Shown here: positions 16,118 through 44,755 of the stretch, one piece after another | How the letters are laid out: the number at the start of each line of letters is the position of its first letter | Numbering within the stretch: position 1 is the first letter of the stretch | Assembly: GCA_964017235.1 (NCBI GenBank) | Contig: OZ024928.1 | Span: forward strand, 81,153,566-81,217,565 | Source of the DNA: Sabellastarte sp. h YS-2021 | Taxonomy: Eukaryota; Annelida; Polychaeta; Sabellida; Sabellidae | DNA length: 64,000 nt | Direction: 5' to 3' | Program-made: the position numbers and the translations under genes | Notes under the pieces: model-generated | Told to the model about the DNA's origin: nothing | The model's input: only the letters and a program-made list of their open reading frames with translations | Database searches by the model: none

Positions 16118-16399
16118 GAAGGTCTATGTAGTGTGAAGAATCCGTAGATAAAATTTCACAACACTTTAATAACTAGATTGGGCCAACTCGGCGCCAACAT
16201 ATCCCCAGACAGGTCATCACTCACGCCACAGGTTTTGTTCGGGAATTTTTTATTTAATCCATTTGTTGTATGCCATAAATATTGGGAAAAGTTATATGAC
16301 CTTCAGCACATCAATCTACTAAGTTTATAACTTCCCAAGGAAGATGGTGTATCCCAGACGTCAAATACATAACTCAACAGATCATATTTTCAATCTTCC

Positions 16400-16690
16400 T
16401 GCAATGATAACTCTGAACCTATTTTCAAAGTATTTAAATGATTGATGATTGAATGTCCATTCTAAATTAATAATCTCAAAAGAGCATATCTGTTTCTATA
16501 TTTGTTGACAAATAAAATATTATTTTTAACTCATCATACTTTTCAATCTTCCTGCAAAGGGTAACTCTGAACCTATTTTCAAAGTATTTAAATGATTGAT
16601 GATTGAATGTCCATTCTAAATTCATAATTCCAAAAGCGTATCTCTGTTTCTATATTTGTTCACAAATAAAATATTATTTAAAAATCATAT
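16400..16690. repeat. Tandem duplication inside H2 (two units of about 150 bp)
   Basis: The text from CAATCTTCCTGCAA through TTGTTGACAAATAAAATATT occurs twice in a row with small changes. The same two units, slightly shorter, are in the sister H2 copy at about 37455-37735. Low-complexity AT sequence and a C-rich stretch (16860-16910) follow. Confidence 0.7.
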
Positions 16691-18245
16691 ATTATTTATA
16701 TTATTATTTTATTATATTATTTTTAGAATTTGCATTATTTTTCAGTTATTCATTTCCTCAATTCTTATATATGTGGTCCATATATATGCAACCTAAATAT
16801 GTGACACAATCTCAGTTCTGACTCCCTTTGTCTTAGATAATTAGATAATGAAGCAAACAATACCTCCCACCCCCACCCCACCTCTCTCCCCTTCTCCACA
16901 CCTCTCTCACTATTACAGAAGATCTGTATACCTTTGTTTATTTAGTGTCACTCAATAGCTGGAGGTCCCAGAGGTGGGTGGGGGATGGGGGGTGGGACTA
17001 CAAAGAGATGGAGTGCTGCAGCACAAATGGTAAACAAACACTTATAATATAAAAGGGGTAATCAAATACAAAAAGCTCAGTTAATCTTATCACTAAAATA
17101 AAATCAAATATATAAATAAGGAATGTCCAACAGGAAGATTATATACCTCCAGAATTAAATATAAATTATCAAACGACAAGAACAGATTTATAATAATAAT
17201 TCAGAATTGAGAATTTTAAGTATGTGATTATCAATTGAAATGAGTTCGTAACTGTAGGAGCTGTGTCAAAATTAGGGCAAGTTGAATAAAACTGGGCTAG
17301 TTGAGGGTTAAAAATCCCCTATTTTTACTACATAAGGCTATAATTTCATTACTATTTGGGACTTAAAGCTCACCAGAAAATAACAGTGTCCATTTTGCCT
17401 ACTTGAATATGTTTAACCAGTTTCATATTAAAAAACTCAGCAAGCAGAGAGATAACACACAAAAATAAGTTCTTAAAAGCCTAAGATAGCCATAACATTA
17501 TTAATATTCAAAATTTAAATAGACAGGCACTTCCTTTGAAAAATTCAAAGATTTCAGCTCTATGAGCCACATAGTTTGACAGTTACAGGGCTTTAAAGTG
17601 GCATAATATCCATAAATTGGGTCTCTGTGGGCATTTTACAATTGTTAAAGAGACCTTAGCAATTAAACTACAGAACTGAAACTTTTTGGGGGGACATACA
17701 CAACAAACAAAAATTATATATAATACAGTTTAAGACTTGTCACACTAAGCATTTCCAAATAACAGGGCAAAATACAGAAAAAAATGTCAAAAAAGGTCAC
17801 TTGGGCAAGTGTCTATGGCCCTCATACACAGGTTAAATGTCTACTAAAAGCCTTGATTTTCGGCACATGTGAAAAGGACATAATAATGCATTCCCAGATG
17901 GGATTTCAGCTCAATCAATCACATAGTTTAACAGTCACAGGGCTTAAAGGTGGCAAAAAGTCCAAATATTGGGTCTCTGTGGGCCTTTTAGAGATCTCGA
18001 TGTGGTTTTCAAATTAAAGCATCAGACTTAAAATCTGCTACATACTAAGACTACACATAGAATATTTATCTAATAATAAAGTTTGAAACTTCTCAGACTC
18101 ACCATTTCCAAGTTACAGAGCAAAATATGTGAAAAATGTCTTAAAACGGTCACTCGGGTGGGTGTTAATGGTCCTCATACACAGTTTAAATGTCTACTTG
18201 AAGCCTTGATTTTTGGCACATGTAAAAAGAACATAATAATGTATT

Positions 18246-18443
18246 TGTGTTATTTGGTGGGTTTCTTTGGAGCTTAATTAATGTTAATCTTCATTTAAGA
18301 ACAGACAGCAAGATAGGTCTTGACACTACAAGCATTTATTCTAAACTCCCAGATTTCACATAACAAAGTATTATATATACATTGTATGTACAATATGTAA
18401 TAGTTGGTACATTACAAATAGTGGAGCACACACATATATAACA
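18246..18443 (-). repeat. 3' LTR of the Gypsy element
   Basis: A 198-bp terminal repeat, starting TG and ending CA. It is identical by eye to the repeat at 22582-22779. Confidence 0.93.
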
Positions 18444-19403
18444 TGCCCCTCTTTTATTAAAAATTAATTGTTTAATTAATTAATACAAAATTATCTTTAT
18501 AAATGTCTATCAAGATTATTCTTTAAAATATAAGCACATAGGTTCTATTGGAGATGTTATGGTAGCTAGAAAAGGTTGACTGGATTTAATGGCTTGTCAG
18601 ATCTGTGTAGTGTTCCTTTAAAGTGATAAATTATGTTATTCTTATCTTGATATAAGAGTTTCCTGACATCATAGGAAATGCTGTTACTGTACACAATAAA
18701 ATGTAATACATCAGTAGCTTCTACAATTACTTTAAATTTATGCACTGAGATAATCATTTGTTGGAAAGTTGTTTTCACAGATGTAGCATTTCCTGTGAAA
18801 GATATATTTGCCTTTGAATTTTCTCCTCTCTGGTATTAATTCTGGTGCACCAAATATTGTAGAGTGGATCTTACAAGAGAGTGGGTTGGTACAAATCAAG
18901 TGTCACTGCATTATTTAATATGTCTAAAATGTTCTCCTATTTTTTTTTATCAAGGAACTAACATGCATTTTCCAATGCTGAGAAACAGGGTAGACTGCCC
19001 TTTCTCTGTTTTATCACCCAAGGGATTATTCTGCCCTTTTATTGGTGTGATAGTAATTTGCCTAGCTTAATAAATGCACAATAGCTACAGATCTAGTAAT
19101 CAGGTTGAATTATATATACAAAGTGTCCACTTAGACACAAAACTTCCAGTATTGCCCAGAAAGTTTCTTGTAATAAGGTTTCTGTGAACTCATTTATATT
19201 TCAACTGTATTCCACATTTTTAGTGATGCAGTTTCTGTAAATGGATTCTATTTCGCCTGTATTCTGCCCCGTCCTCTGTTGTGACAATGTAAGAACGATC
19301 ACTGTGGACTGCCTTGACAACAGCTTGTTTCCAGCGTTTGTTTGGTTGTTGCATCATGATGTATTCTCCTACGGCAAGCTTAGGCTGGGGTTTAGAGCCT
19401 TGG

Positions 19404-22400
19404 TCATAATACCTCTTTTGCCTTTTCCATTTCAAAGAATCTGCTTAAGCAATCCACTATAACCAAATAGTTGTCATTATTCCAACTGAACAGATCAGTT
19501 GCAATCTTTGCCCATGGTATGTCATGTTGTCTTAGTGGTTCCTTGCTGTTTGATTTCCTGTGGATCTGACATATGATGCATTTAGTGATCATGTTATATA
19601 TGCCAGAATTAAGTTTGGGCCAATAGAACAGTGTCCTGGCTCTCTGTTTACACTTCTCAATGCCCTTGTGACCAATATGGAGTTTATCCAACATTGTTTT
19701 TCGCAGGGCTTGTGGCATCAGTATCCTGTCTCCCTTGAATATGATTCCATCAATGATGCACAATTCTTCCCTCACTGACCAATATTCAAGGGTTTCTGCA
19801 GGACAGTTGGCTTTGTGATCTGGCCATCCTGTATTTATGACACTGGCTAAAACTTGCAGCTGTCTGTCTTTCTTGGTTTCTAACTTGACTTCATTAAGTC
19901 GATTATCACTGATTGGCAGATTTTGCACAACAGCATGGACCTGCGCTTCAATGTCCTCATCCCCTAGGTTGTCAGTGCTTTTCATGTGCTTACGTGACAG
20001 AGCATCAGCAACAGGTATTTCTTTTCCTGGCCTGTGGATGACAGTAATGTCATACTTTTGTAGTCGTAATAGCATGCGCTGCAATCGAGGGGGAGCCGAA
20101 GCAAGTGGCTTTTTTGTGATGGCTTCTAGTGGCTTGTGGTCTGATTCAACTATCACCTTTCTGCCATAGAGGTATTCATGAAATTTTTCACAGCCAAATA
20201 GGATTGCAAGCAGTTCTTTCTCAATCTGTGCATAGGCCTTTTGTGTCTCAGTTAGGGATTTGGATGCAAAAGCCACAGGCTTGCCATCTTGCATTAGAGT
20301 TGCTCCTAATCCATTTTTAGATGCGTCCACTTGAATGTGGGTCTCTTTTTCTGGGTCAAAATAAGCAAGTACTGGTGAAGCTGTGATCACATCTTTTACC
20401 TTCTGGAAGATTGACTCCGTGTTACAGTCCCATTTGAATACTGTGTTCTTCCTTGTTAGTTCTCTCAAAGGGGCTGTCATGTCCGAGAGCATAGGGGCAA
20501 ATGCTGACAGGTAGTTGAGCATTCCCAAGACTGATTCTAGTTCACCTTTGTTTGTAGGGCTTGGCATATTCTTGATTGCTTCTACCTTTTTCTTGTCAGC
20601 CTTCAGGCCATCTTTTGATAGCACATGTCCAAAGAAGGAGACTTCAGTTAAGCCAAATTTGCACTTTTCCTTGTTTAACTTGATGCCTTTTTCCCTGGAT
20701 CTCTGCAGCATTTTCCTTTGATTGGCCTCATACTCCTCAAGGCTATTTCCCCAGATCAGAATATCATCAGCAATTGGTTCTACACCTTCTAACCCTTCAT
20801 ACGCCTGATCAATTTTCTGTTGGAAGATATCTTGGGAAGAAATCAAACCAAATGGGAGGCGTAGAAATTTATACCTGCCAAAGGCTGTGTTGAAGGTTGT
20901 CAGTTTTGCACTTTCTTCATCAAGTTTTATTGTCCAATAGCCACTTCTGGCATCACAAGTACCAAAATACTTTGCATCCTTGAGGTTTGGCAGGATGTCG
21001 TGTAAGGTACGGGTTCTGTAATATTGTCGCCTTATGGCCTGGTTTAGGTCCTTTGGGTCAAGGCAAATTCTAATATCTGAGTTAGCTTTCTGGACCACAA
21101 CCATGGAGTTGACCCAAGCTGTCGGTTCGGTAACCTTGGCAATCACATTTAATTTCTCCATACGGTCTAGCTCCGATTTAACCTTATTCTTTATTGCAAC
21201 AGGTATTCGTCGTGGGGGGTGAACAACTGGTTGGTAGTTTGGGTCCACATGAATATGGTATTCTCCTTCAAACATACCAAGACCACTGAAGACATCTTTA
21301 AATTCTTCCATGAAATTTGTTGGCTTGTCCTTGTCCACTGAGAGGATAACTTTTATCAGACCCATATCTGTGCATGCCTTGAGACCTAGCACTGGTGGTG
21401 CTGATGTCTGAACAACATAGAGATCCAGAGTCTTTGTTGTTTCCTTGTACTGGCCTTGCAAAGAGACCTTTCCTTCTACTTTCAACGGATTGCCACTATA
21501 ACTTGTCAGGCGGATGGAAGTTGGCTTTAAGAGTATAGCAGGAAGACCTAATTTTCTGTAAAGCTTCAATGGCAAAACATTTACTTGTGCTCCCGTATCC
21601 AGCTTGAAACTGACAGCTTTTGCTTTTGATCCAGTGGAGAGTTTTACAGGGACAAATACTTCATCTTGTTTGCAATTTGCACTTATTTCACCTATATAGA
21701 AGTGTTCACCTTGGTCGCTGTCTGTGTCACTTTCAGTTGCACTTTCATTAACAGTATGAACTTTTGGTGGGTTTGACCTACATTTGCTGGCAAAGTGATT
21801 AGCTTTTCCACATCTATAGCATTCTTTCCCCATCGCAGGACAGGTTCCACCTGGGCTGTGTTGACCACCACACCTGGGGCATTCCTTTTTAGGTCTTGTG
21901 TTTTGATGGTTTTTCTTACTTTTGCTGGATTTTCCATAAGAAGTTTTCCTCCTAACTACATGTACTTCTTCAGGTGGACTGGCCATAGTTTTCAGTTGTT
22001 GCTTGCAGACCTCGTAGGTTTGGGCCATTTCAATGGCACTATCCAGGGTGAGTTCATTTCCTTTGTTAATGAGTTTTTCCCGTATATTTGGGTTGTGCAC
22101 ACCAAACACAATACGATCACGCACCATTTTGTCATCTTCTGGATATGAACAGTCTTTTACTAATAACTTCAGATCGGTGACAAAGTTTTCAAAAGGCTCA
22201 CCTTCAGCCTGAACTCGAGCTTGGAACTTGTAGCGGGCGAAAACTTCATTACTTTTTGGGGTAACATAAGCTTCAAATTTGTCATAGAAGGTTTGTAACC
22301 TCTTACCTTCTTCATCTGACAAAGTCCAAGTATTCCGAATGTCTCTTCCCTTTTCACCTACCCATATCAGTAAAAAACTGACTTTGGCTTCTTCACCAAG

Positions 22401-22532
22401 CCTTCGGAGTGGACCAGAAAACATTAACTCTGTATGTTGCCTGAATTTTTTCCAGACTTCTGGCAAGTTTTTAGCTTCCCAGTCCATTACAGGTGTTGTT
22501 ACATGCCTATCCATTGTCAAAATTGTATCCAA
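19404..22532 (-). CDS. Gag-Pol frame of the Gypsy element
   Basis: A single long frame in the style of metazoan Gypsy elements with fused gag and pol. In order: a capsid-like region, zinc knuckle CYRCGKANHFASKC, aspartic protease LDTGAQVNVLP, RT with PFGLISSQDIFQQ and IADDILIWG, RNase H with HIQVDASKNGLGATL and VESDHKPLEAI, and an integrase zinc domain (HIGHKGIEKC, then CIICQ). A further integrase-like C-terminal segment lies downstream near 19220-19435. The family could be Mag-like; that is a guess from motif style. Treated as a fossil. Confidence 0.85.
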   Translation of the reverse strand: MDTILTMDRHVTTPVMDWEAKNLPEVWKKFRQHTELMFSGPLRRLGEEAKVSFLLIWVGEKGRDIRNTWTLSDEEGKRLQTFYDKFEAYVTPKSNEVFARYKFQARVQAEGEPFENFVTDLKLLVKDCSYPEDDKMVRDRIVFGVHNPNIREKLINKGNELTLDSAIEMAQTYEVCKQQLKTMASPPEEVHVVRRKTSYGKSSKSKKNHQNTRPKKECPRCGGQHSPGGTCPAMGKECYRCGKANHFASKCRSNPPKVHTVNESATESDTDSDQGEHFYIGEISANCKQDEVFVPVKLSTGSKAKAVSFKLDTGAQVNVLPLKLYRKLGLPAILLKPTSIRLTSYSGNPLKVEGKVSLQGQYKETTKTLDLYVVQTSAPPVLGLKACTDMGLIKVILSVDKDKPTNFMEEFKDVFSGLGMFEGEYHIHVDPNYQPVVHPPRRIPVAIKNKVKSELDRMEKLNVIAKVTEPTAWVNSMVVVQKANSDIRICLDPKDLNQAIRRQYYRTRTLHDILPNLKDAKYFGTCDARSGYWTIKLDEESAKLTTFNTAFGRYKFLRLPFGLISSQDIFQQKIDQAYEGLEGVEPIADDILIWGNSLEEYEANQRKMLQRSREKGIKLNKEKCKFGLTEVSFFGHVLSKDGLKADKKKVEAIKNMPSPTNKGELESVLGMLNYLSAFAPMLSDMTAPLRELTRKNTVFKWDCNTESIFQKVKDVITASPVLAYFDPEKETHIQVDASKNGLGATLMQDGKPVAFASKSLTETQKAYAQIEKELLAILFGCEKFHEYLYGRKVIVESDHKPLEAITKKPLASAPPRLQRMLLRLQKYDITVIHRPGKEIPVADALSRKHMKSTDNLGDEDIEAQVHAVVQNLPISDNRLNEVKLETKKDRQLQVLASVINTGWPDHKANCPAETLEYWSVREELCIIDGIIFKGDRILMPQALRKTMLDKLHIGHKGIEKCKQRARTLFYWPKLNSGIYNMITKCIICQIHRKSNSKEPLRQHDIPWAKIATDLFSWNNDNYLVIVDCLSRFFEMEKAKEVL

Positions 22533-22581
22533 TTGTACACAAAATATCCAAAGTATATGTAAGTTACCACTTCTGACACCA

Positions 22582-22779
22582 TGTGTTATTTGGTGGGTTT
22601 CTTTGGAGCTTAATTAATGTTAATCTTCATTTAAGAACAGACAGCAAGATAGGTCTTGACACTACAAGCATTTATTCTAAACTCCCAGATTTCACATAAC
22701 AAAGTATTATATATACATTGTATGTACAATATGTAATAGTTGGTACATTACAAATAGTGGAGCACACACATATATAACA
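22582..22779 (-). repeat. 5' LTR of the Gypsy element
   Basis: A 198-bp terminal repeat identical by eye to 18246-18443. In minus-strand sense it is followed directly by the likely tRNA-Leu primer-binding site. Confidence 0.93.
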
Positions 22780-24119
22780 GTATTCCCAGATGAGATTTCA
22801 GCTCTATCAGTCACATAGTTTAACAGTCATGGGCCTTAAAACTGGCAAAAAGTCCAAATATTGGGTCTCTATGGGGCCTTTTAGAGACCTCAATGTGGCC
22901 TTCAAATTAAAGCTTCAAACTTAAAATTTGTCACATACTAAGATTACACATAGAATATGTATCTAATACAGTTTGAAACTTCTCAGACTTACCATTTCCA
23001 AGTTACAGGGCAAAATATGTGAAAAATGTCTAAAAAGGGTCACTCGGGTGGGGATTTATGGTCCTCAAACACAGGTTAAATGTTTACTTAAAGCCTTGAT
23101 TTTCGGCACATGTAAAAAAGACATAATAATGCATTCCCAGATGGGACTTCAGCTCCATCAATAACATAGTTTAACAGTCACAGGGCTTAAAGGTGGCAAA
23201 AAGTCCATATATTGGGTCTTTGGGAGCCTGTCAGAGACCTCAATTTGACCTTCAAATTAAAGCTTCAGACTTAAAATCTGTTATATACTAACATTACACA
23301 TAGAATATATATCTAATACAGTTTGAAACTTCTCAGACTTACCATTTCCAAGTTACAGAGCAAAATACGTGAAAAATGTCTTAAAAGGGTCACTCGGGTG
23401 GGTGTTTATGGTCCTCATACATGGGTTAAATGTCTATTAAAGGCCTAAATTTTGGAGTACATACAAGAAAAACATATTGATATATTCTCAGATGATATTT
23501 CACTTAGATGAGAGACATAGTTTGAAAGCTACAGTGCTTGAAGATGGCAAAAAGTCCATAAATTGGGTCTCTGTGGGCAATTTTGAGATCTTAAGTCGGC
23601 CTAACAGGTAAACCTACAGCCTTTAAATTTTTCACAGACAAGGATTACATATAAGAGTTACATCTGAGTTTGAGACTCATCAGAATTACCACTTCCAAAT
23701 TATAGGGCAAAATAAGTTAAAAATATAGGAAAAAAGTCCTAAGTGGGGTCTTTATGGGCCTCAAAGACAATTTTCTCCTCAACTTAAAGTCTTGATTTTC
23801 GGCACATGTACTAAGAATATATTAATGTGTTCTCAGATAAAATTTGAGGCAGATAAGCCTCATAGTTTGTGACCTAGAGGGCTCTAAGTTGCCAAAAGTG
23901 CAATTTCTGACCTTAAGGTGGCCATAAGTTCTTTATTATTGGGAGTTTAAGGTCACCTTAAAATAGGGATCTTCCTTTGGGCATCCTTAACATGTGTACC
24001 AAGTTTGAAAAAAAAATATTAATCCGTTTTTGAGTTATCGCGTTCACAAGGAAATTTCTAGGGCGGCGGCGCGACGGACCTGAATCCAATATATCCCCGA
24101 CTTTCGTCTGGGGATATAA

Positions 24120-24375
24120 CTATTCTGGCAAAAAAACTGAAATTAAGCTCAGAAAAAATTTTCGTGTACACTTGAACATGCGCCAAACGAAAAAGATGCT
24201 ATGACATCACGCTGTCTAGACAGGAAGGAAGTATGACACGCCATCTGGCGAGTGCAGTAGAACTAGGGACCGGCTGGCCGGTGGAAACACAGGACGTCTT
24301 TTTCTGACGTTTGGCGGGCCGGTCTGCGCCGACCGGTTTAGCAATTGTCCATTGGATAGGATGTATTAACGCAAT
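24120..24375 (-). mobile_element. One-ended fragment of a small inverted-repeat transposon
   Basis: From about 24165 to 24372 the sequence matches, in inverse orientation, the small element at 54212-54475, including the end TTGGATAGGATGTATTAAC. Only one end is present; the other side passes straight into satellite. No coding capacity. Confidence 0.6.
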
Positions 24376-28504: not shown

Positions 28505-28869
28505 CTGTTAGAAAAAAAAGAAAAACAAATATATGTCTAGCTAAACCTGACATAGCAACACTCTATCCAGATGACCGCCCTTCTGGAACAAGTAAATGTT
28601 TGGAGAGGGCTTGTCTTCTATAGCAATCCATATAGACATGCTAGATCAACTTAGATAGATAACTAGAAATAGGCCGCCCTGTTGATAGTAGATGCGAATA
28701 GAAACAGGATAGCATAGAAGAACACACATTATCATGTGTAATGTCCACCCATGAACCTTTTGCCCAAATTGTACAGTAGTCTTACAAGACCCTGTTTCAT
28801 TTGTAAAATATATCAATGATGCTTAAATATTTGATAGTGTAGATGTAATTTATTTCAGCTTCATGCCTT

Positions 28870-31800
28870 TTTGCATTGGTTGGGTTGAAAATTTTGACGA
28901 AATCACTCTATCTTGCACGGTTAAGAAGATAGAAGCCAATTCCTGTTTTTCTATTTTTGGCAAAAATTTGAAAATTCAAAATGGCCGCCATTATTGGGAA
29001 AAGGAAATTTTTTTGAAAATTGCCAAGAGTACATTTCTTAGATACCCTATGGGTCGAAAATTTCAACAAAATAACTCTATTTTGCACGGTTAAGGCCAGT
29101 TTGTGTTTTTCCATTTTGGGCAAAAATTCGAAAATTCAAAATGGCTGCCATTTTTGGGGAGGGGAAAATTTTTTGAAAATTGCAAAGATTACATTCCTTA
29201 GATACCCTGTGGGTTGAAAATTTCGACGAAATCGCTCTATCTCGCATGGTTAAGGAGATAGAAGCAAATTTGTGTTTTGCCATTTTTGGCAAAAATTTGA
29301 AAATTCAAAATGGCCGCCATTTTAGGGGAGGGGAAAATTTTTTAGAAATTACCAAGAGTACAATGCTCAGATACCCTGTGGGTCGAAAATTTTGACGAAA
29401 TCACTCTATCTGGCACGGTTAAGGAGATAGAAGCAAATTTGTGTTTTGCCATTTTTGGCAAAAATTCGAAAATTCAAAATGGCCGCCATTTTTGGGGAGG
29501 GGAAAATTTTTGGAAAATTGCAAAGATTGCATTCCTTAGATACCCTGTGGGTCGAAAATTTCGACGAAATCGCTCTATCTCGCACGGTTAAGGAGATAGA
29601 AGCAAATTTGTGTTTTGCCATTTTTGGCAAAAATTCGAAAATTCAAAATGGCCGCCATTTTTGGGGAGGGGAAAATTTTTTGAAAATTGCAAATATTACA
29701 TTCCTTAGATACCCTGTGGGTCGAAAATTTCGATGAAATCGCTCTATCTCGCACGGTTAAGGAGATAGAAGCAAATTTGTGTTTTGCCATTTTTGGCAAA
29801 AATTCGAAAATTCAAAATGGCCGCCATTTTTGGGGAGGGGAAAATTTTTGGAAAATTGCAAAGATTGCATTCCTTAGATACCCTGTGGGTCGAAAATTTC
29901 GACGAAATCGCTCTATCTCGCACGGTTAAGGAGATAGAAGCAAATTTGTGTTTTGCAATTTTTGGCAAAAATTCGAAAATTCAAAATGGCCGCCATTTTT
30001 GGGGAGGGGAAAATTTTTTGAAAATTGCAAAGATTACATTCCTTAGATACCCTGTGGGTCGAAAATTTCGACGAAATCGCTCTATCTCGCACGGTTAAGG
30101 AGATAGAAGCAAATTTGTGTTTTGCCATTTTTGGCAAAAATTCGAAAATTCAAAATGGCCGCCATTTTTGGGGAGGGGAAAATATTTTGAAAATTGCAAA
30201 GATTGCATTGCTTAGATACCCTGTGCGTCGAAAATTTTGCCGAAATCGCTCTATCTCGCACGGTTAAGGAGATAGAAGCAAATTAGTGTTTTGCCATTTT
30301 TGGCAAAAATTCGAAAATTCAAAATGGCCGCCATTTTTGGGGAGGGGAAAATTTTTGGAAAATTGCAAAGATTGCATTCCTTAGATCCCCTGTGGATCGA
30401 AAATTTTGCCGAAATCGCTCTATCTCGCACGGTTAAGGAGATAGAAGCAAATTTGTGTTTTGCCATTTTTGGCAAAAATTCGAAAATTCAAAATGGCCGC
30501 CATTTTTGGGGAGGGGAAATTTTTTTGAAAATTGCAAATATTACATTCCTTAGATACCCTGTGGGTCGAAAATTTCGACGAAATCGCTCTATCTCGCACG
30601 GTTAAGGAGATAGAAGCAAATTTGTGTTTTGCCATTTTTGGCAAAAATTCGAAAATTCAAAATGGCCGCCATTTTTGGGGAGGGGAAAATTTTTGGAAAA
30701 TTTCAAAGATTGCATTCCTTAGATACCCTGTGGGTCGAAAATTTCGACGAAATCGCTCTATCTCGCACGGTTAAGGAGATAGAAGCAAATTTGTGTTTTG
30801 CCATTTTTGGCAAAAATTCGAAAATTCAAAATGGCCGCCATTTTTGGGGAGGGGAAAATTTTTTGAAAATTGCAAATATTACATTCCTTAGATACCCTGT
30901 GGGTCGAAAATTTCAACGAAATCGCTCTATCTCGCACGGTTAAGGAGATAGAAGCAAATTTGTGTTTTGCCATTTTTGGCAAAAATTCAAAAATTCAAAA
31001 TGGCCGCCATTTTTGGGGAGGGGAAAATATTTTGAAAATTGCAAAGATTGCATTCCTTAGATACCCTGTGTGTCGAAAATTTTGCCGAAATCGCTCTATC
31101 TCGCACAGTTAAGGAGATAGAAGCAAATTTGTGTTTTGCCATTTTTGGCAAAAATTCGAAAATTCAAAATGGCCGCCATTTTTGGGGAGGGGAAATTTTT
31201 TTTGAAAATTGCAAATATTACATTCCTTAGATACCCTGTGGGTCGAAAATTTCGATGAAATCGCTCTATCTCGCACGGTTAAGGAGATAGAAGCAAATTT
31301 GTGTTTTGCCATTTTTGGCAAAAATTCGAAAATTCAAAATGGCCGCCATTTTTGGGGAGGGGAAAATTTTTGGAAAATTGCAAAGATTGCATTCCTTAGA
31401 TACCCTGTGGGTCGAAAATTTCGACGAAATCGCTCTATCTCGCACGGTTAAGGAGATAGAAGCAAATTTGTGTTTTGCCATTTTTGGCAAAAATTCGAAA
31501 ATTCAAAATGGCCGCCATTTTTGGGGAGGGGAAAATTTTTTGAAAATTGCAAAGATTGCATTCCTTAGATACCCTGTGGGTCGAAAATTTCGACGAAATC
31601 GCTCTATCTCGCACGGTTAAGGAGATAGAAGCAAATTTGTGTTTTGCCATTTTTGGCGAAAATTCGAAAATTCAAAATGGCCGCCATTTTTGGGGAGGGG
31701 AAAATATTTTGAAAATTGCAAAGATTGCATTGCTTAGATACCCTGTGCGTCTAAAATTTTGCCGAAATCGCTCTATCTCGCACGGTTAAGGAGATAGAAG

Positions 31801-33320
31801 CAAATTAGTGTTTTGCCATTTTTGGCAAAAATTCGAAAATTCAAAATGGCCGCCATTTTTGGGGAGGGGAAAATTTTTGGAAAATTGCAAAGATTGCATT
31901 CCTTAGATACCCTGTGGGTCGAAAATTTCAACGAAATCGCTCTATCTCGCACGGTTAAGGAGATAGAAGCAAATTTGTGTTTTGCCATTTTTGGCAAAAA
32001 TTCGAAAATTCAAAATGGCCGCCATTTTTGGGGAGGGGAAATTTTTTTGAAAATTGCAAATATTACATTCCTTAGATACCCTGTGGGTCGAAAATTTCGA
32101 CGAAATCGCTCTATCTCGCACGGTTAAGGAGATAGAAGCAAATTTGTGTTTTGCCATTTTTGGCAAAAATTCGAAAATTCAAAATGGCCGCCATTTTTGG
32201 GGAGGGGAAAATTTTTGGAAAATTGCAAAGATTGCATTCCTTAGATACCCTGTGGGTCGAAAATTTCGACGAAATCGCTCTATCTCGCACGGTTAAGGAG
32301 ATAGAAGCAAATTTGTGTTTTGCCATTTTTGGCAAAAATTCGAAAATTCAAAATGGCCGCCATTTTTGGGGAGGGGAAAATTTTTTGAAAATTGCAAATA
32401 TTACATTCCTTAGATACCCTGTGGGTCGAAAATTTCGACGAAATCGCTCTATCTCGCACGGTTAAGGAGATAGAAGCAAATTTGTGTTTTGCCATTTTTG
32501 GCAAAAATTCAAAATGGCCGCCATTTTTGGGGAGGGGAAAATATTTTGAAAATTGCAAAGATTGCATTGCTTAGATACCCTGTGTGTCGAAAATTTTGCC
32601 GAAATCGCTCTATCTCGCACGGTTAAGGAGATAGAAGCAAATTAGTGTTTTGCCATTTTTGGCAAAAATTCGAAAATTCAAAATGGCCGCCATTTTTGGG
32701 GAGGGGAAAATTTTTGGAAAATTGCAAAGATTGCATTCCTTAGATCCCCTGTGGATCGAAAATTTTGCCGAAATCGCTCTATCTCGCACGGTTAAGGAGA
32801 TAGAAGCAAATTTGTGTTTTGCCATTTTTGGCAAAAATTCGAAAATTCAAAATGGCCGCCATTTTTGGGGAGGGGAAATTTTTTTGAAAATTGCAAATAT
32901 TACATTCCTTAGATACCCTGTGGGTCGAAAATTTCGACGAAATCGCTCTATCTCGCACGGTTAAGGAGATAGAAGCAAATTTGTGTTTTGCCATTTTTGG
33001 CAAAAATTCGAAAATTCAAAATGGCCGCCATTTTTGGGGAGGGGAAAATTTTTGGAAAATTGCAAATATTACATTCCTTAGATACCCTGTGGGTCGAAAA
33101 TTTCGACGAAATCGCTCTATCTCGCACGGTTAAGGAGATAGAAGCAAATTTGTGTTTTGCCATTTTTGGCAAAAATTCGAAAATTCAAAATGGCCGCCAT
33201 TTTTGGGGAGGGGAAAATTTTTTGAAAATTGCAAAGAGTACACTCCTCAGATACCCTGCGGGTCGAAAATTTTGCCGAAATCGCTCTATCTCGCACGGTT
33301 AAGGAGATAGAAGCAAATTA
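28870..33320. repeat. 169-bp satellite, subfamily B (about 26 units)
   Basis: The period is 169 bp throughout. Marks of the subfamily are GGGGAGGGGAAAA, CGCACGGTTAAGGAGATAG and the dyad TTTGCCA-TTTT-TGGCAAA. The first two or three units and the last are diverged; the core is very homogeneous. Variant units with AAAATTTTGCCGAAATCG recur at 30231, 31076, 31753 and 32590, that is every 5, 4 and 5 units. Open frames of 60-104 codons on both strands follow from the unit and are not genes. Confidence 0.95.
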
Positions 33321-33757
33321 CTCAAAAGTAGTACTGAAAATACACAATGAAGTACCTAAATGGCTATTACTCATGTACTGACAAAGCTATCAGTCCCAAA
33401 TGCAATACCAAGCGAGCTATGGACATAACAATCTTGTATTCAAAATTGTAGTAAAATATCTTTAATTATTTTGGCTTAAATGCACGGAAACCAATGGGTA
33501 CTGAAAATAGCTGTACTTAAGTATTACTCAGTAAGCAAAAGAGGTACAACAGCCAAAAGCAATCCCAAGCAAGCTACTGACCCAATAAGCCTGCATACCA
33601 AATTTGGTGACAATAGCTCTAATACTTTTCCTTTAAATGAGCGGAAACCATGCGTGACGCCGGACATCGGACGCCGGACGCCGGACATCGGACATCGGAC
33701 ATCGGACGGCGAAAAAAGCAAAAATAATATATCCACCCCCCAGGGGGGTGGACATAA
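33320..33757. other. Right-end module of H3 copy a
   Basis: It contains TAGCTATTACTCA-type segments and a short GGACATC/GGACGCC repeat (about 33660-33710), then the terminal hairpin at 33732-33752. The same order is seen at 24560-24923. Confidence 0.65.
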
Positions 33758-34363
33758 TTAAAATACAAATCTACAACCACATTATCAGACAAATTACAAA
33801 GCAATCATGGAGAAATTCTAAAACCTGAGTCAAATTTACTGCATACTGCATTTTAACTTAACAACCAGTAGGATTATGTTTTACTTGATTGTCAGTTTCA
33901 ACAGATTTAAATCAATTATTTAATTAAAAGAATGCAAATAGACAAAAACCTGCACAAACATAACCAAAATTTAAACTAAAAGCTTTTTAAAAAATAGCAT
34001 CAGAGATGCCCATACCCCACAGCCTGGGGAGATAGTTTTCAACACCATGAAATATAGAAGTAGTGAAACAGTACAAAGATCTAGATACTTTCAGAGGAGT
34101 GTCAGTTATATAAAGCTCCAGATAATGTTTCAGTAAAGAAATAACATCTAAAAGAAAGAAAATGTATGTAAAGATAAAGTACTAAATCAAGACATTTGAA
34201 TAGCAAGATGACAGCATTAATCAATAAACTAAAAATTACAAAGCTGTAAATTTTATCAATGGGAGTATAGCTTTCGATGGAAATAGCATAATTATAAAAA
34301 TGTACATAAACTAAACAGTTGCTGTAATCTATATATCTTTGTCACAAGAGAAACAAGTCTCAA

Positions 34364-34594
34364 TTTGTTTATTTGGGGTTTTACGTCGCTTTCAACACTG
34401 TACAGGTCATATCACGACGGGTAGTTCGAAGGGCAGAGGAAACCAGTACATATAGTTCGCTAGGGTTCTGTACTGTAAACTGCCGACCAACGGCAAGCAA
34501 CTACCAGCTTTCCCACTTACAGCCATGACGGGGATCGAACCCCGGCCGCAGAGGTGGGAGGCGAGAGTGTTACCACTCTGCCACCATGGCCCCC
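34364..34594 (-). mobile_element. tRNA-derived SINE 1
   Basis: A 231-bp SINE on the minus strand. Its head has an A-box TGGCAGAGTGG (34573-34583) and a B-box GGTTCGATCCC (34531-34541). The body shares CAGTTTACAGTACAGAACC and TGTACTGGTTTCCTCTGCCC with SINE 2. The tail is GTAAAACCCCAAATAAACAAA-like. A 14-bp target duplication, GAAACAAGTCTCAA, lies at 34350-34363 and 34595-34608. The related H4 copy at about 55108 shows the empty site. Such tails are known from bivalve SINEs. Confidence 0.9.
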
Positions 34595-34619
34595 GAAACA
34601 AGTCTCAAATCTTGCAGGT

Positions 34620-35460
34620 GAACACACTTCGGCAGAGTCAAAGGTCACACCATGATGCACACCTACACCCCCTATCCAATGTCCCTAACAAGTGTCAACC
34701 TTCTACACCTTACCAAATCCAATAAATAGCACAGACAAGATTTTCAAACTCATGGTCACGACGACTAGGTCATATGTCAAATCAAGACTACACCATGATG
34801 ATACTCACCTACAACCCCAAACCAATGTCCCTACCAAGTATCAACTTCCTACACCTTAGAGTTTCTGAGATATAGCCTGGACAAGATTTTAGAGGTCAAG
34901 GTCACTAGAGCAAGATCAAAGGTCAAATCAAGGTCACACCATGACGTTGCACACCTACAACACCCTAACCAATGTCCCTACCAAATATCAACTTTCTACA
35001 CCTTACGGTTTCTGAGATATAGCCCAGACAAGATATTATAGGTCAAGGTCACTACAGCAAGGTCAAATCAAGGTCACACCATGACGTTGCACACCTACAA
35101 CACCCTAACCAATGTCCCTACCAAATATCAACTTCCTACACCTTACGGTTTCTGAGATATAGCCCAGACAAGATATTATAGGTCAAGGTCACTACAGCAA
35201 GGTCAAAGGTCAAATCAAGGTCACACCATGACGTTGCACACATACACCCCCTAACTAATGTCCCTGCAAATTATCAACTTCCTACACCTTACAGTTGCCA
35301 AGATATAGCCCGGACAAGATTTTCAAACTCAAGATCACTGTGTCAAGGTCAAATGTCAAATCAAGGCCAGACCATGACGTTGTACACCTATACCCCCTAA
35401 CCAATGTCCCTACCAAGTATGAACTTCCTACACCTACAGCCTGGACAAACTTTTTCCCAC
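34620..35460. repeat. AGGTCA-rich tandem repeat of H4 copy a
   Basis: Units of about 145-150 bp carry TCAAGGTCA half-sites and, at 35200-35212, a perfect AGGTCAAAGGTCA. Each unit also has CCAATGTCCCTACCAAGTAT and CTTCCTACACCTTACGG. Confidence 0.85.
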
Positions 35461-35530
35461 CGCCCGAACGCCCATCCGGACACCATGGGTGAAAACAATA
35501 CCCTGACAGCCCTTAAGGGCTGTGGGGTAA

Positions 35531-37240: not shown

Positions 37241-39359
37241 CTAGATTGGGCCAACTCGGCGCCAACATATCCCCAGACAGGTCATCACTCATGCCACAGG
37301 TTTTGATCGGGAATTTTTTATGTAAGCCATTTGTTGTATGCCATAAATCTTGGGAAAAGTTATATGAACTTCAGCACATCAATCTACTAAATTTATATCT
37401 TCCCAAGGAAGATGGTGTATCCCCAGACGCCGAATACATAACTCAACAGAGCATATTTTCAATCTTCTTGCAATGATAACTCTGAACCTATTTTCAAAGT
37501 ATTTAAATGATTGATGATTGAATGTCCATTCCAAATTAATAATCCCAAAAGAGCATATCTGTTTCTATATTTGTTGACAAATAAAATATTATTTCTAACT
37601 CAACTCATCATACTTTTCAATCTTCCTGCAAAGGGTGACTCTGAACCTATTTTCAAAGTATTTAAATGATTCATAATCCCAAAAGCGCATATCTGTTTCT
37701 ATATTTGTTCACAAATAAAATATTATTTAAAAATTATATATTATTTATATTATTATTTTATTATATTATTTTTAGAATTTGCATTGTTTTTCAGTTATTC
37801 ATTTCCTCAATTCCTATATATGTGGTCCATATATATGCAACCTAAACATGTGACACAATCTCAGTTCTGACTCCCCTTTGTCTTATTAGATAATGAAGCA
37901 AACCCCATCTCCCAACCCCACCCCACCCCTCTCCCCTTCTCCACACCTCTCTCACTGTTACAGAAGATCTGCGACCCCACTGAAAAGTCTGGTTCTTTGT
38001 TTCTCATTTGATATCATTCAATACCTTTGTTTATTTAGTGTCACTCAATAGCTGGAGGTCCCAGAGGTGGATGGGGGGTGGGACTAAATACAGCACAAAT
38101 GGTAAACAAACAAAAGGGGTAATCAAATACAAAAAGCTCAGTTAATCTTATCACTAAAATCAAATCAAATATATAAATAAGGAATGTCCAACAGGAAAAT
38201 TATATACCTCCAGAATTAAATATAAATTATCAAACCACAAGAACAGATTTATAATAATAAGTCAGAATTAAGAATTTTAAGAATGTGATTATCAACTGAA
38301 ATGAGTTAGTAACTGTAGGAACTGTGTCAAAATTAACTGAGGCAAACTGAATAAAACTGGGCTAGTTGAGGGTTAAAAATCCCCTATTTTTACTACATAA
38401 GGGTATAATTTCATTAATATTGGACTTATAGCTCACCAGAAAATAACAGTGTCCATTTTGCCTACTTGAATATGTTTAACCAGTTTCATTTTAAAAAGTT
38501 AAAAACTCAGCAAGCAGAGAGATAACACACAAAAATAAGTACTTAAAAGCCTAAGATAGCCATAACATTATTAATAAAAATTTAAATAGACAGGCACTTC
38601 CTTTGAAAAATTCAAAGATTTCAGCTGTATGAGCCACATAGTTCGACAGTTACAGGGCTTTAAAGTGGTATAATATCCATAAACTGGGTCTCTGTGGGCA
38701 TTTTACAATTGTTAAAGAGACCTTAGCAATTAAACTACAGAGCTGAAACTTTTTGGGGGACAAACATAACAAAAAAAAATTATATATAATACAGTTTAAG
38801 ACCTGTCACACTAAGCATTTCCAAATAACAGGGTAAAATACGGAAAAAAATGTCAAACTAGAGGATCGCTCGCAAAAAAAAAAGATAATGTTTTTGCATA
38901 GCAAAAACAAAGCGTCCCGAAAAGGACATAAAGGTGAGTGCTAAAGTATTAAGAAAATGCTTCGTTTCTAGCCTTATACTGTTGTGGCAACCAAAGTCAG
39001 CGCAGTCTGCTCTATCTAGCACGGTTTTCACGATATAAGCATTTTTGTGTTTTGCAAAAAATAAAAAAATTAAAAATGTCCGCTATATTTGGCGAGACAA
39101 AAATATTTTGAAAATTGGCATGGCTACTCTGCAGAGATACCCAGCAGGTCCAAAATTTTGTTGAGTTCGCTCCATATAGCACAGTTTTCGAAATATAAGC
39201 ATTTTTGTGTTTTGCAAAAACTTTGAAAATTCAAAATGGCCACCATTTTTGGGGGAGACAAAATTTTTTGTTAAGACCACTGCCGTGGTGTGTATCTCCC
39301 GCCGAGCATTAAAGCTGAAGAAATAGCTTTTCCGAGATATTCACAATTTTTCATTTTCG

Positions 39360-41635
39360 TGTGTGAAAGGTCTTCCAAAAGTAGGTGAATGAGTTATTTG
39401 AGAAAAATTGGCTATCTGCAATACTATTAAGAGATAATTCACATTTACTCATTTTGAGTAGGTGAATAATTATCTATGGGTCTGAAACTTCACCAAGTGA
39501 AAGCTCTCCCAAAAGTAGGTGAATGAGTTATTTGAGAAAAATTGGCTATCTGCAATACTTTTAGAGATAATTCGCATTTACTCATTTTGAGTAGGTGAGT
39601 AATTAGCTATGGGTCTGAAACTTCACCATGTGAAAGCTCTCCCACAAGTAGATGAATGAGTATTTGATAAAAATTGGGTATCCGCAATACTTTTACAGAT
39701 AATTAGCATTTACTCATTTTGAGTAGGTGAATAAATAGCTATGGGTCTGAAACTTCACAGAGTGAAAGCTCTCCCAAAAGTAGGTGAATGAGTTATTTGA
39801 GAAAAATTGGCTATCTGCAATACTTTTAGAGATAATTCACATTTACTCATTTTGAGTAGGTGAATAATTAGCTATGGGTCTGAAACTTCACCAAGTGAAA
39901 GCTCTGCCAAAAGTAGGTGAATGAGTTACATGTATTTGAGAAAAATTGGCTATCTGCAATACTTTTAGAGATAATTCGCATTTACTCATTTTGAGTAGGT
40001 GAGTAATTAGCTATGGGTCTGAAACTTCACCAAGTGAAAGCTCTCCCAAAAGTAGGTGAATGAGTTATTTGAGAAAAATTGGCTATCTGCAATACTTTTA
40101 GAGATAATTCGCATTTACTCATTTTGAGTAGACGAGTAATTAGCTATGGGTCTGAAACTTCACCAAGTGAAAGCTCTCCCCAAAGTAGGTGAATGATTAA
40201 TTTGAGAAAAATTGGCTATCTGCAATACTTTTAGAGATAATTCGCATTTACTCATTTTGAGTAGGTGAGTAATTAGCTATGGGTCTGAAACTTCACCAAG
40301 TGAAAGCTCTCCCAAAAGTAGGTGAATGAGTTATTTGAGAAAAATTGGCTATCTGCAATACTTTTACAGATAATTCGCATTTACTCATTTTGAGTAGGTG
40401 AGTAATTAGCTATGGGTCTGAAACTTCACAGAGTGAAAGCTCTCCCAAAAGTAGGTGAATGAGTTATTTGAGAAAAATTGGCTATCTGCAATACTTTTGG
40501 AGATAATTCGCATTTACTCATTTTGAGTAGGTGAGTAATTAGCTATGGGTCTGAAACTTCTCCAAGTGAAAGCTCTCCCAAAAGTAGGTGAATGGTTAAT
40601 TTGACAAAAATTGGCTATCTGCAATACTTTATGAGATAATTTGCATTTACTCATTTTGAGTAGGTGAGTAATTAGCTATGGGTCTGAAACTTCACCAAGT
40701 GAAAGCTCTCCCAAAAGTAGGTGAATGAGTTATTTGAGAAAAATTGGCTATCTGCAATACTTTTAAGAGATAATTCGCATTTACTCATTTTGAGTAGGTG
40801 AGTAATTAGCTATGGGTCTGAAACTTTACGAAGTGAAAGCTCTCCCAAAAGTAGGTGAATGAGTTATTTGAGAAAAATTGGCTATCTGCAATACTTTTAG
40901 AGATAATTCGCATTTACTCATTTTCAGTAGGTAATTAGCTATGGGTCTGAAACTTCACAGAGTGAAAGCTCTCCCAAAAGTAGGTGAATGAGTTATTTGA
41001 GAAAAATTGGCTATCTGCAATACTTTTAGAGATAATTCGCATTTACTCATTTTGAGTAGACGAGTAATTAGCTATGGGTCTGAAACTTCACCAAGTGAAA
41101 GCTCTCCCCAAAGTAGGTGAATGATTAATTTGAGAAAAATTGGCTATCTGCAATACTTTTAGAGATAATTCGCATTTACTCATTTTGAGTAGGTGAGTAA
41201 TTAGCTATGGGTCTGAAACTTCACCAAGTGAAAGCTCTCCCAAAAGTAGGTGAATGAGTTATTTGAGAAAAATTGGCTATCTGCAATACTTTTAGAGATA
41301 ATTCGCATTTACTCATTTTGAGTAGGTGAGTAATTAGCTATGGGTCTGAAACTTCACAGAGTGAAAGCTCTCCCAAAAGTAGGTGAATGAGTTATTTGAG
41401 AAAAATTGGCTATCTGCAATACTTTTAGAGATAATTCGCATTTACTCATTTTGAGTAGGTAAATAATTAGCTATGGGTCTGAAACTTCACCATGTGAAAG
41501 CTCTTCCAAAAGTAGGTGAATGAGTTATTTGAGAAAAATTGGCCATCTGCAATACTTTTAGAGGTAATTCGCATTTACTCTTTTTGAGTAGGTGAGCAAT
41601 TAGCTATGGGTCTGAAACTTCACCAAGTGAAAGCT
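39360..41635. repeat. 133-bp satellite array in H1 copy b (about 17 units)
   Basis: The same unit as at 1-1275. Several multi-unit blocks recur within it; for example a pair of units with TTGAGTAGACGAGTAATTAG appears at about 40120 and 41050, which indicates segment-wise duplication. Confidence 0.93.
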
Positions 41636-41639
41636 CTTT

Positions 41640-42925
41640 GGGATAGCTGCTCTGCAGAGATACCCTGAAGATAAAAAATTTCGTCGAAATCGCTCTATGT
41701 AGCACGGTTTTCGAAATATAAGCATTTTTGTGTTTTGCAATTTTTGCGCAAAAATTCGAAAATTCAAAATGGCCGCCATTTTTGGCAAGACAAAATTTTT
41801 TTGAAAATTGGCATGGCTACTCTGCAGAGATACCCTGTGGGTCAAAAATTTCGTCGAAATCGCTCTATCTAGCACGGTTTTCGAGATATAAGCATTTTTG
41901 TGTTTTGCAATTTTGCGAAAAATTTGAAAATTCAAAATGGCCGCCATTTTTTGCGAGAAATTTTTTGTTTGAAAATTGGCATGGCTACTCTCCAGAGATA
42001 CCCTGCGGGTCAAAAATTTCGTCGAAATCGCTCTATCTAGCAGGGTTTTCGAGATATAAGCATTTTTGTGTTTTGCAATTTTGCAAAAAATTCGAAAATT
42101 CAAAATGGCCGCCATTTTTTGCGAGACAAAAATTGTTTGAAAATTGGCATGGCTACTCTCCAGAGATATCCTGTGGGTCAAAAATTTCGTCGAAATCGCT
42201 CTATCTAGCAGGGTTTTTGAGATATAAGCATTTTTATGTTTTGCAATTTTTGCGAAAAATTCGAAAATTCAAAATGGCCGCCATTTTTTGCGAGACAAAA
42301 ATTGTTTGAAAATTGGCATGGCTACTCTCCAGAGATATCCTGCGGGTCAAAAATTTCGTCGAAATCGCTCTATCTAGCAGGGTTTTTGAGATATAAGCAT
42401 TTTTATGTTTTGCAATTTTTGCGAAAAATTCGAAAATTCAAAATGGCCGCCATTTTTGGCGAGACAAATTTTTTTTGAAAATTGGCATGGCTACTCTGCA
42501 GATACACCCTGTGGGTCAAAAATTTCGTCGAAATCGCTCTATCTAGCAGGGTTTTCGAGATAGAACCATTTTTATGTTTTGCAATTTTTGCGAAAAATTC
42601 GAAAATTCAAAATGGCCGCCATTTTTGGCGAGACAAAATTTTTTTCAAAATTGGGATAACTACTCTGCAGAGATACCCTGAGGGTCAAAAATTTTGTCGA
42701 AATTGCTCTATCTAGCACGGTTTTTGAGATATAAGCATTTTTGTGTTTTGCAATTTTTGCGAAAATTTCGAAAATTCAAAATGGCCGCCATTTTGGGCGA
42801 GACAAAAATTTTTTGAAAATTGGGAAAACTACTCCGCAGAGATACCCTGCGGGTCAAAAATTTCGTCGAAATCGCTCTATCTAGCACGGTTTTCGAGATA
42901 TAAGCATTTTTGTGTTTTCCTTATT
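41640..42925. repeat. 169-bp satellite, subfamily A in H1 copy b (about 7.6 units)
   Basis: Period 168-169 bp with GGCCGCCATTTTT, GCGAGACAAAA and TCTATCTAGCA[C/G]GGTTTT. It begins in the same way as at 1276, straight after the last 133-bp unit. Confidence 0.93.
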
Positions 42926-43315
42926 TGGAAAATTCGTAATGATTAATTAATCATTAATTACTCGGCCATTTCTTGACCAATCAATGCCAAAATCTAATGA
43001 TTTCCAGATTTTAATAGAATGAATGTATTTGCCAAGTTTCAGGTGAATTGATAAAATTCCTTTCAAGTTATCATCCGGACAAGCTTCCCCATCGAAAAAA
43101 GACATTTTTGGTCATGTGACCTCTCTGATTGGTTGAAATGTCACTGCAGCATATTCAAAAAAATTCCCCAGGGCTACTGCCTAAACCTGCCAAATTTGAA
43201 AAGAATCCGCCTAACGGTTACAGAGTTATAAGGAAAACAAAATGCGGAGCCGGCGGAGCCGGCGGAGCCGGAAGCTCTCCCATACACAAACAAGCGTCCC
43301 TTGCGGGACGCTTAA
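42926..43315. other. End module of H1 copy b
   Basis: It opens with ATTAATTAATCATTAATTAC, continues with a non-repeated stretch shared at 2226-2611 and 60355-60719, then (GGAGCC)-type repeats (43244-43271) and the terminal hairpin 43292-43313. Confidence 0.85.
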
Positions 43316-44755
43316 AAAGGTCACTTGGGTGAGTGTTTATGGCCCTCATACACAGGTTAAATGTCTACTAAAAGCCTTGATTTTCGGCACATGTAGAAAG
43401 GACATAATAATGCATTCCCAGATGGGATTTCAGCTCCATCAATCACATAGTTTAACAGTCACAGGGCTTAAAGGTGGCAAAAAGTCCAAATATTGGGTCT
43501 CTGTGGGCCTTTTAGAGATCTCGATGTGGCCTTCAAATTAAAGCTTCAGATTTATAATCTGTCACATACTAAGATTATACATAGAATATATATCTAATAA
43601 AGTTTGAAACTTCTCAGACTTACCATTTCCAAGTTACAGAGCAAAATATGTGAAAAATGTCTTAAAAGGGTCACTCGGGTGGGTGTTTATGGTCCTCATA
43701 CACAGTTTAAATGTCTACTTGAAGCCATGATTTTTGGCACATGTAAAAAGAACATAATAATGTATTCCCAGATGAGATTTCAGCCCTATCAGTCACATAG
43801 TTTAACAGTCACAGGGCTTAAAGGTGGCAAAAAGTCCAAATACTGGGTCTTTGGGAGCCCGTCAGAGACCTCAATGTGGCCTTCAAATTTTAGCTTCAGA
43901 CTTAAAATTTGTCACATACTAAGATTACACATAGAATATGTATCTAATACAGTTTGAAACTTCTCAGACTTACCATTTCCAAGTTACAGAGCAAAATATG
44001 TGAAAAATGTCTAAAAAGGGTCACTCGGGTGGGGATTTATGGTCCTCATACATGGGTTAAATGTCTATTAAAGGCCTAAATTTTGGAGTACATACAAGAA
44101 AAACATATTGATATATTCTCAGATGATATTTCACTTAGATGAGAGACATTGTTTGAAAGCTACAGTGCTTGAAGGTGGCAAGAAGTCCATAAATTGGGTC
44201 TCTGTGGGCAATTTTGAGACCTCAAGTCGGCCTAACAGGTAAACCTACAGCCTTTAAATTTTTCAGACAAGGATTACATATAAGAGTTACACCTAGAGCA
44301 GTTTGAGACTCATCAGAATTACCACTTCCAAATTATAGGGCAAAATATGTTAAAAATCTAGGAAAAAAGTCCTAAGTGGGGTCTTTATGGGCCCCAAACA
44401 CAATTTTCTCCTCAACTTAAAGTCTTGATTTTCGGCACATGTACTAAGAATATATTAATGTGTTCTCAGGTAAAATTTAAGCCAGATACGCCTCAAAGTT
44501 TGTGACCTAGAGGGGTCTAAGTGGTCAAAAGTGCAATTTCTGACCTTAAGGTGGCCATAAGTTCTTTATTATTTGGAGTTTAAGGTCACCTTAAAATAGG
44601 GATCTTCCTTTGGGCATCCTTAACATGTGTACCAAGTTTGAAAAAAAAATATTAATTGGTTTTTGAGTTATCGCGTCCACAAGGAAATTTCTACGGCGGC
44701 GGCGGCGCGACGGACCTGAATCCAATATATCCCCGACTTTCGTCTGGGGATATAA

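Follow-up and report, generated by a model that had tools for sequence, protein, structure and literature searches.

Helentrons and Helentron-associated elements (HINEs) share palindromic subterminal inverted repeats (subTIRs), insertion at TT with two or more T at either side and, in some, tandem repeats (PMC4067079; here and below, published systems are described from the accessible parts of the papers cited). According to the same source, an autonomous partner is a Helentron with the same subTIR, over at least 11 bp, and the same ends, and the distribution of the T's between the two HINE ends was left open. Cg_HINE elements of the Pacific oyster combine a 5' subTIR of 11-12 bp and its complementary repeat, a microsatellite, a satellite-like array and a 3' subTIR; they occupy T-rich targets without duplication, and no autonomous Helentron could be related to them (PMC7492417). 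Proto-Helentron-Pi of Phytophthora infestans, whose structure is described as Helitron-like, encodes Rep/helicase, has a 5' TT and a 3' CTAG and inserts next to A without duplication (PMC4067079). FoHeli1 and FoHeli2 of Fusarium oxysporum, of Helitron2 type, code for Rep-Hel, end in ATTTT and carry a hairpin-forming inverted repeat at both ends, the 3' one tens of bp inside; their target is given as TNAT/T in a figure legend and as TNAT and A in the body text, and joined-end molecules were amplified by PCR for FoHeli1 (PMC5148889). Canonical Helitrons have a 5' TC, a 3' CTRR and, about 11 bp inside the 3' end, a palindrome; they insert mostly next to A (summary in PMC4067079). Here we compare with these systems four families of satellite-carrying elements, H1 to H4, found in 64,000 nucleotides of the annelid Sabellastarte sp. 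h YS-2021 (contig OZ024928.1, positions 81,153,566 to 81,217,565; the whole of this stretch is called the window).

From the structure of their ends, H1-H4 are very probably non-autonomous rolling-circle transposons of the Helentron/Helitron2 class, resembling HINEs. This agrees with the Helentron-associated class proposed in the initial annotation, and the features that point to it are the subTIRs, the 3' hairpin of H1, a stretch next to the 5' hairpin that is G+C-rich or GTCC-like, the internal arrays, the TT targets, the empty sites and the chains of H3. The class itself is ordinary; what is unusual is the combination of TT...CTAG ends with a target motif common to H1-H3 and with chains that delimit the unit. 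The elements are read throughout on the minus strand of the window, and their parts are as follows.

38858..43315, minus strand: complete H1 element, within an H2 copy, with 169-bp and 133-bp satellite arrays inside
43292..43313, minus strand: H1 5' subTIR hairpin, AAGCGTCCC-gcaa-GGGACGCTT, -11.1 kcal/mol (0/200 shuffles fold as well)
38889..38918, minus strand: H1 3' subTIR (GGGACGCTT) with a hairpin next to it, ~50 bp inside the CTAG end
16173..24119, minus strand: H2 copy a, which provides the empty site for H1
37241..44755, minus strand: H2 copy b, split by H1, with tandem units of ~350 bp
44726..44754, minus strand: H2 5' subTIR hairpin (0/200 shuffles fold as well)
37246..37278, minus strand: H2 3' subTIR GTCTGGGGATAT and weak hairpin before CTAG (32/200 shuffles fold as well)
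28663..33757, minus strand: complete H3 element, containing a 169-bp satellite array akin to the one in H1
33728..33756, minus strand: H3 5' subTIR hairpin (2/200 shuffles fold as well)
28724..28750, minus strand: H3 3' subTIR GGGTGGACAT and hairpin ACACAT-gata-ATGTGT (29/200 shuffles as good, for the whole 98 nt)
33995..35530, minus strand: H4, boundaries corrected from 33976-35530, with a 146-bp array and a GCTA end before a T run
35506..35523, minus strand: H4 5' hairpin ACAGCCC-ttaa-GGGCTGT (0/200 shuffles fold as well)
33997..34024, minus strand: H4 3' subTIR GGCTGTGGGGTA and hairpin GCATC-tct-GATGC; the 3' end resembles that of an autonomous Helentron, group A (below)
17641..17941, minus strand: stretch of H2 copy a that lacks the H1 insertion (empty site); once joined, the flanks match it over 301 bp at 95.3%

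The element ends were followed in genome copies (assembly of 1.786 Gb, 647 contigs). At the 5' end of H1, TT/AAGCG (slashes mark element boundaries) was followed outwards by differing flanks in 30/30 best-ranked loci; this set, which includes the window's own copy, consists of 28 loci found by a first search pattern and of two (L038 and L053) that this pattern missed. The exact 3' 20-mer of H1 has 7,862 genome copies, and the first 20 in the list order of contig C1 all read CTAG/TT, the third base being T in 8, A in 6, G in 4 and C in 2. For H3, whose exact 5' 25-mer has 3,913 copies, the start TTATGTCC was present in 16/16 pattern-picked starts (the first 15 matches and the first unit of one chain), the second T of this start being already set by the search pattern. 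The boundaries of H2 were sharp in 10/10 fetched copies at each end, in a query-selected sample whose matches were ranked partly by flank match. Homology running past the ends had been named beforehand as evidence against the proposed boundaries; in these copies it stopped sharply, and the boundaries of H1, H2 (both copies) and H3 were upheld. An alternative H3 start at TTAATTATGTCC, 4 bp beyond the one first proposed, came from flank-match ranking and was absent from pattern-picked copies. When compared with the pattern-picked sample, the TTTGA flank of a first H1 3' sample was explained by the same bias.

The 3' boundary of H4 had been placed at a TAG at 33976. Apart from the window's own, 39 matches were listed, and they start at 33979-33992; in the flanks that were fetched, similarity ends after GATGCTA (or a near variant) and T's. 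Homology thus stops at GCTA/TTTT, about 33995, which rules out an H4 end at a TAG. The proposal that all four families start with TTA and end with TAG before T thus stands for the 5' TTA of H1-H4 and for the 3' end of H1-H3, and not for the GCTA end of H4. The pattern common to H1-H3 is a 5' TT followed by a hairpin-forming motif, the inverse motif near the 3' end and a final CTAG before TT. No family has the 5' TC of canonical Helitrons; the CTAG of H1-H3 fits their CTRR, whereas GCTA of H4 does not.

All four 5' ends (TTAAGCGTCCC, TTATATCCCCAGAC, TTATGTCCACCCC and TTACCCCACAGCC) fold into hairpins made by the subTIR and its complement, as had been predicted; among 200 shuffles each for H1, H2, H3 and H4, those folding at least as well numbered 0, 0, 2 and 0. 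The predicted inverse motif was also present near the other end, about 52, 26, 78 and 18 bp from it in the same order, compared with about 38-60 bp in mite HINE (PMC4067079). Each family therefore has a palindromic subTIR, or a subTIR with an adjacent complementary repeat, and an inverse copy near the 3' end, as HINEs do. A second small hairpin at the 3' end, claimed for all families, was confirmed as strong in H1 (0 of 200 shuffles folding as well) and proved weak in H2, H3 and H4 (32, 29 and 10 of 200). Judged by eye on the window copies, and not on family consensus sequences, the subTIRs measure 12 bp in H2 and H4 and 10 bp in H1 and H3, compared with 11-15 bp in HINEs and 11-12 bp in Cg_HINE (PMC7492417). 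The families share with Cg_HINE the complementary repeat at the 5' subTIR, the satellite-like array, the 3' subTIR and the T-rich target without duplication, and the GTCC-like stretch in H3 and H4 is comparable to the oyster microsatellite; the accessible text on Cg_HINE mentions tandem whole Helitrons in general, but neither a CTAG terminus nor T-N-A-TT nor chains (PMC7492417). The CTAG end of H1-H3 differs from HINE and Helentron ends and is found, together with the 5' TT, in proto-Helentron-Pi, which in contrast to H1-H3 encodes Rep/helicase (PMC4067079). The hairpin-forming repeats are placed as in FoHeli1/2, which differ by their coding capacity, by their ATTTT end and by the absence of satellite cargo from the accessible description (PMC5148889). 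From canonical Helitrons the families are set apart by their subTIRs and TT target (PMC4067079). H1-H3 thus appear to join HINE-type subTIRs to proto-Helentron TT...CTAG ends.

The window was also scanned for 9-mers with a reverse complement nearby and again far away, which gave 7 matches, against a mean of 0.1 and a maximum of 1 in 60 dinucleotide shuffles. Four of them were satellite or other repeats and three were H1, H3 and an H3-like copy at 24894, which also served as the far partner of H3 in place of H3's own 3' end; neither H2 nor H4 was flagged by this test. The genome copies are the better evidence for the ends.

Two pairs of empty and filled sites were available, one for H1 and one for H2, with none for H4. 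H1 interrupts H2 copy b at a point where the other window copy is uninterrupted (empty GACCTTTTTTGAC, filled GACCTTTTT[...]TTTGAC). H2 interrupts the Rep gene of one group A Helentron, L012, for which L014, L015 and L017 are empty copies (empty GTTTATTTTGG, filled GTTTATT[...]TTTTGG). Insertion was precise in both pairs, the filled site having two more T. This fits the insertion at TT without target duplication that characterises HINEs.

We then counted target positions back from the element base that follows TT, using as background 79,203 TT sites in the window and in 73 fetched loci over 3 kb. T was found at -5 in 15/16 H3, 29/30 H1 and 10/10 H2 sites (background 29.6%), and A at -3 in 13/16, 22/30 and 10/10 (background 28.1%). 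The H3 set alone was drawn without flank selection, and in it the chance of at least 15 T in 16 at -5 is 1.4e-7. Selection on -5 in the H1 set should be slight because 22/30 loci differ from the query at -3, though the query has T at -5; the H2 sample is more exposed to such selection. Additional H2 sites (L012 and both window copies) have T at -5 in 3/3 and A at -3 in 2/3. Exceptions in the window are a G at -5 for the H1 copy at 60717 and for the H3-like copy at 24921. H1-H3 therefore prefer the target T-N-A-TT. The 5' ends of H4 in five loci adjoin T runs, with one CAATT.

The arrangement of H3 copies on contig C1 allowed the unit of transposition to be delimited. Five H3 5' ends lie at 17088377-17105061, spaced 2,640, 4,674, 4,673 and 4,673 bp, and the last unit measures 3,786 bp. 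The four junctions, read without fixing the bases before TATGTCC, are ...CCTATTTCTAG/TT/ATGTCCACC..., and two adjacent complete units (4,674 and 4,673 bp) differ by 0 mismatches and 1 gap. In the whole genome, the exact junction CTAG/TT/ATGTCC occurs 14 times at 11 loci and a reversed-pattern control 0 times; this search covers the exact form, junctions with spacer bases being invisible to the pattern. The H3 unit thus carries one TT, and therefore the net gain of TT at the empty sites is explained without target duplication; by extension from H3, H1 and H2 would also carry one TT per unit. An assembly error in the C1 chain is possible. Head-to-tail chains as such are not new, tandem Helitron insertions being stated in print for other organisms (PMC5148889). 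In the open literature, taken in its accessible parts and without most subscription journals, supplements and Repbase, we met neither animal HINEs with a T-N-A-TT target nor HINE chains whose units are joined by a single TT, an absence that carries little weight.

Such chains might also arise by repeated targeted insertion beside an existing copy or by unequal crossing-over, rather than by rolling-circle read-through. The outer C1 units of 2,640 and 3,786 bp, compared with 4,674, 4,673 and 4,673 bp for the inner ones, make later recombination plausible. However, crossing-over requires a first exact junction, and arithmetic from copy counts and target-site counts predicts that chance insertion of one H3 copy at the end of another would give 0.04 (any TT) to 0.5 (T-N-A-TT only) loci, against the 11 observed. 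We thus consider this origin of the chains unlikely. The H3 junctions bear as well on a reading of the families as miniature inverted-repeat transposable elements (MITEs) with a 2-bp TT target duplication. The two additional T at both empty sites would fit it, and some DINE-1-like elements were formerly classed as MITEs (PMC4067079). Yet the ends are asymmetric, with a subTIR at the 5' edge and its partner 18-78 bp inside the 3' edge, terminal inverted repeats as such are lacking, and in the H3 chains CTAG is followed at once by TTATGTCC, only one TT being present; a MITE-like nature is accordingly very improbable.

In the search for an enzyme source, Helitron_like_N gave 24 genome matches at E <= 0.001, and several diverged Rep groups are present. 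Group A (L012, L014, L015 and L017, about 99% alike) is a Helentron, with Rep, a PIF1-like helicase and a C-terminal endonuclease in one frame. The 2,245-codon open frame of L015, scanned for domains in three pieces, matches C48 protease, DUF6570, Rep, PIF1 and Exo_endo_phos, the last at 24.1 bits, just under the Pfam cut-off of 24.5. The ends of group A read T/AGGCGGGTTGC...GCAACCCGCCT...CTCTTGT. Its 3' boundary was obtained by comparing L015 with L014 and its 5' boundary from L015 alone; the 5' end is the less certain because satellite-like tandem repeats of ~165 bp lie both just inside it and outside (L123 1-860). The H2 copy next to the Rep gene in L012 was considered as a sign of partnership and rejected, as it is an insertion into the gene. 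It lies at position 1504 (G000:C11, about 69208217; also L129), and a satellite carrier here interrupts a possible enzyme source. The insertion point falls within two codons behind a conserved H-L-H, which we take to be the HUH motif of Rep.

Group B (L010 and L016, 98.9% alike) encodes PIF1 and an endonuclease (40.8 bits for the endonuclease piece), in a frame that is split in L010 and truncated in L016. A search of 19 kb, which included an 11-mer inverted-repeat scan, did not reveal the ends of group B, and nothing came of looking elsewhere for its GGCTCCTCAGGTT-type motif. Beside the group B Rep/helicase/endonuclease gene (L130 and the end of L127; B 13676-15163) there are two arrays: one of 133 bp, oriented oppositely to that of H1 and up to 93% like it, and after it one of 154 bp, in which the unit looks similar by eye to the 155-bp unit of window 3254-5006. 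We rejected these arrays as proof of partnership, given the opposite orientation of the 133-bp array and the unlocated ends of group B.

An autonomous relative with the same ends had been suggested as a check on a single enzyme source. Group A does not correspond to it: its subTIR is a fifth one, unlike those of H1-H4, which also differ from each other at the 5' end, and its 3' end is CTTGT. That 3' end resembles the one of H4 (score 11; p 0.0004 in letter shuffles, lower than for any other of the 10 pairs compared) and not those of H1, H2 and H3 (p 0.08, 0.23 and 0.60). The existence of two or more enzyme lineages, one formed by group A or a relative serving H4 and one or several other Rep lineages serving H1-H3, is in our opinion fairly probable, in view of these 3' ends, of the differing 5' subTIRs and of the several Rep groups. 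The differing subTIRs of group A and H4 speak against it, since group A is then no partner by the 11-bp rule (PMC4067079), as does the 90-93% identity of H4 copies to the window's (among the matches listed), compared with about 99% within group A.

The converse possibility is that a single Rep/helicase moves at least H1, H2 and H3 through end structure and CTAG/TT, and not through the subTIR sequence. We regard it as doubtful. The 3' tetramer, the TT target and the T-N-A preference are common to the three families, which speaks for the initially proposed single source; each family has its own subTIR, and the group A 3' end is like that of H4 only, which does not fit it. In addition, beyond their common CTAG, the terminal 24 nt of H1-H3 resemble one another no better than shuffled sequences do (p 0.13, 0.29 and 0.20), and such an enzyme was not found among Rep groups of which only group A has located ends. 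Sharing of T-N-A-TT may moreover reflect the whole clade rather than one enzyme, because TNAT/T is also printed for the Helitron2 of Fusarium (PMC5148889). One enzyme may or may not serve all four families.

Several observations weigh against assigning H1-H4 to the Helentron/Helitron2 class. At the 3' end, the hairpins of H2 and H3 do not stand out from those of shuffles, and the match within the subTIRs of H1 and H3 extends over only 10 bp. For H1 and H2, the net gain of TT could also be a 2-bp TT duplication. An autonomous element sharing the ends of H1, H2 or H3 was not found; for group A the ends were located, for group B they were sought over 19 kb, and the other Rep groups were read within 1.5 kb of the match. 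Finally, H1 has more end copies than H3 but a single exact self-junction among 7,862 ends, within chance (0.15 to 2), and therefore chain formation is not general.

If H1-H4 are indeed rolling-circle elements of this class, the most likely course would begin with a Rep/helicase encoded elsewhere, which would recognise the subTIR hairpin at the 5' end and the subTIR with its hairpin at the 3' end, and would cut after CTAG (H1-H3) or GCTA (H4). The strand between the ends would be replicated and displaced, the ends being joined over TT, and insertion would take place at TT, with a preference for T-N-A-TT. The sequence enclosed by the ends, here satellite arrays, would be carried along. A circular or multimeric intermediate may be formed, and the H3 chains fit missed termination at the 3' end. 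A bolder proposal would be that the ends are recognised through their shape together with a few fixed bases (5' TT and hairpin, 3' CTAG/TT, target T-N-A-TT) and scarcely through their sequence, allowing one Rep/helicase to move several families with unlike subTIRs, any satellite to become mobile by gaining such ends, and read-through to make long-unit arrays; we put it forward tentatively, as it is more likely wrong than right.

The families are less distinct in cargo than was initially thought: they had been described as unrelated, which does not hold for H1 and H3, whose 169-bp repeats are 80.2% identical over 1,268 bp. In H3 3' ends from query-selected loci (L093-L102), 7/10 are followed by one and the same position of the 133-bp satellite of H1, as judged by eye. 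Two more H1-family copies lie in the window in the same orientation (1-2611 and about 57838-60719), with a second, diverged 5' hairpin (AAGTGTCCC) at 60770-60791, and a second H4-family copy with 146-bp repeats lies at about 54764-55626. Elsewhere in the genome, an H1 copy stands directly behind an H4 3' end in the same orientation (L060, GATGCTA-TTT-AAGCG), and another is apparently inserted, by eye, into the 5' module of a further H1 (L142). Among other elements of the window, a frame inside H2 copy a (16173-24119) is presumably Ty3/gypsy-like, and we assume from their likeness that the long minus-strand frames of 5908-16123 belong to two DIRS-type retroelements with a recombinase-like part. 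A frame of 1,269 codons at 47873-51682, of non-LTR (long terminal repeat) type, matches RVT_1, Exo_endo_phos and zf-RVT.

The single TT carried by each unit of the H3 chains bears on the distribution of T's at HINE ends (PMC4067079). The T-N-A-TT target of three families matches the motif of fungal Helitron2, which suggests a conserved integration rule. The families are large, and the 40 best H1 5' modules among the matches listed are 98-100% identical to that of the window. They are therefore a good place to seek a working pairing of enzyme and satellite.

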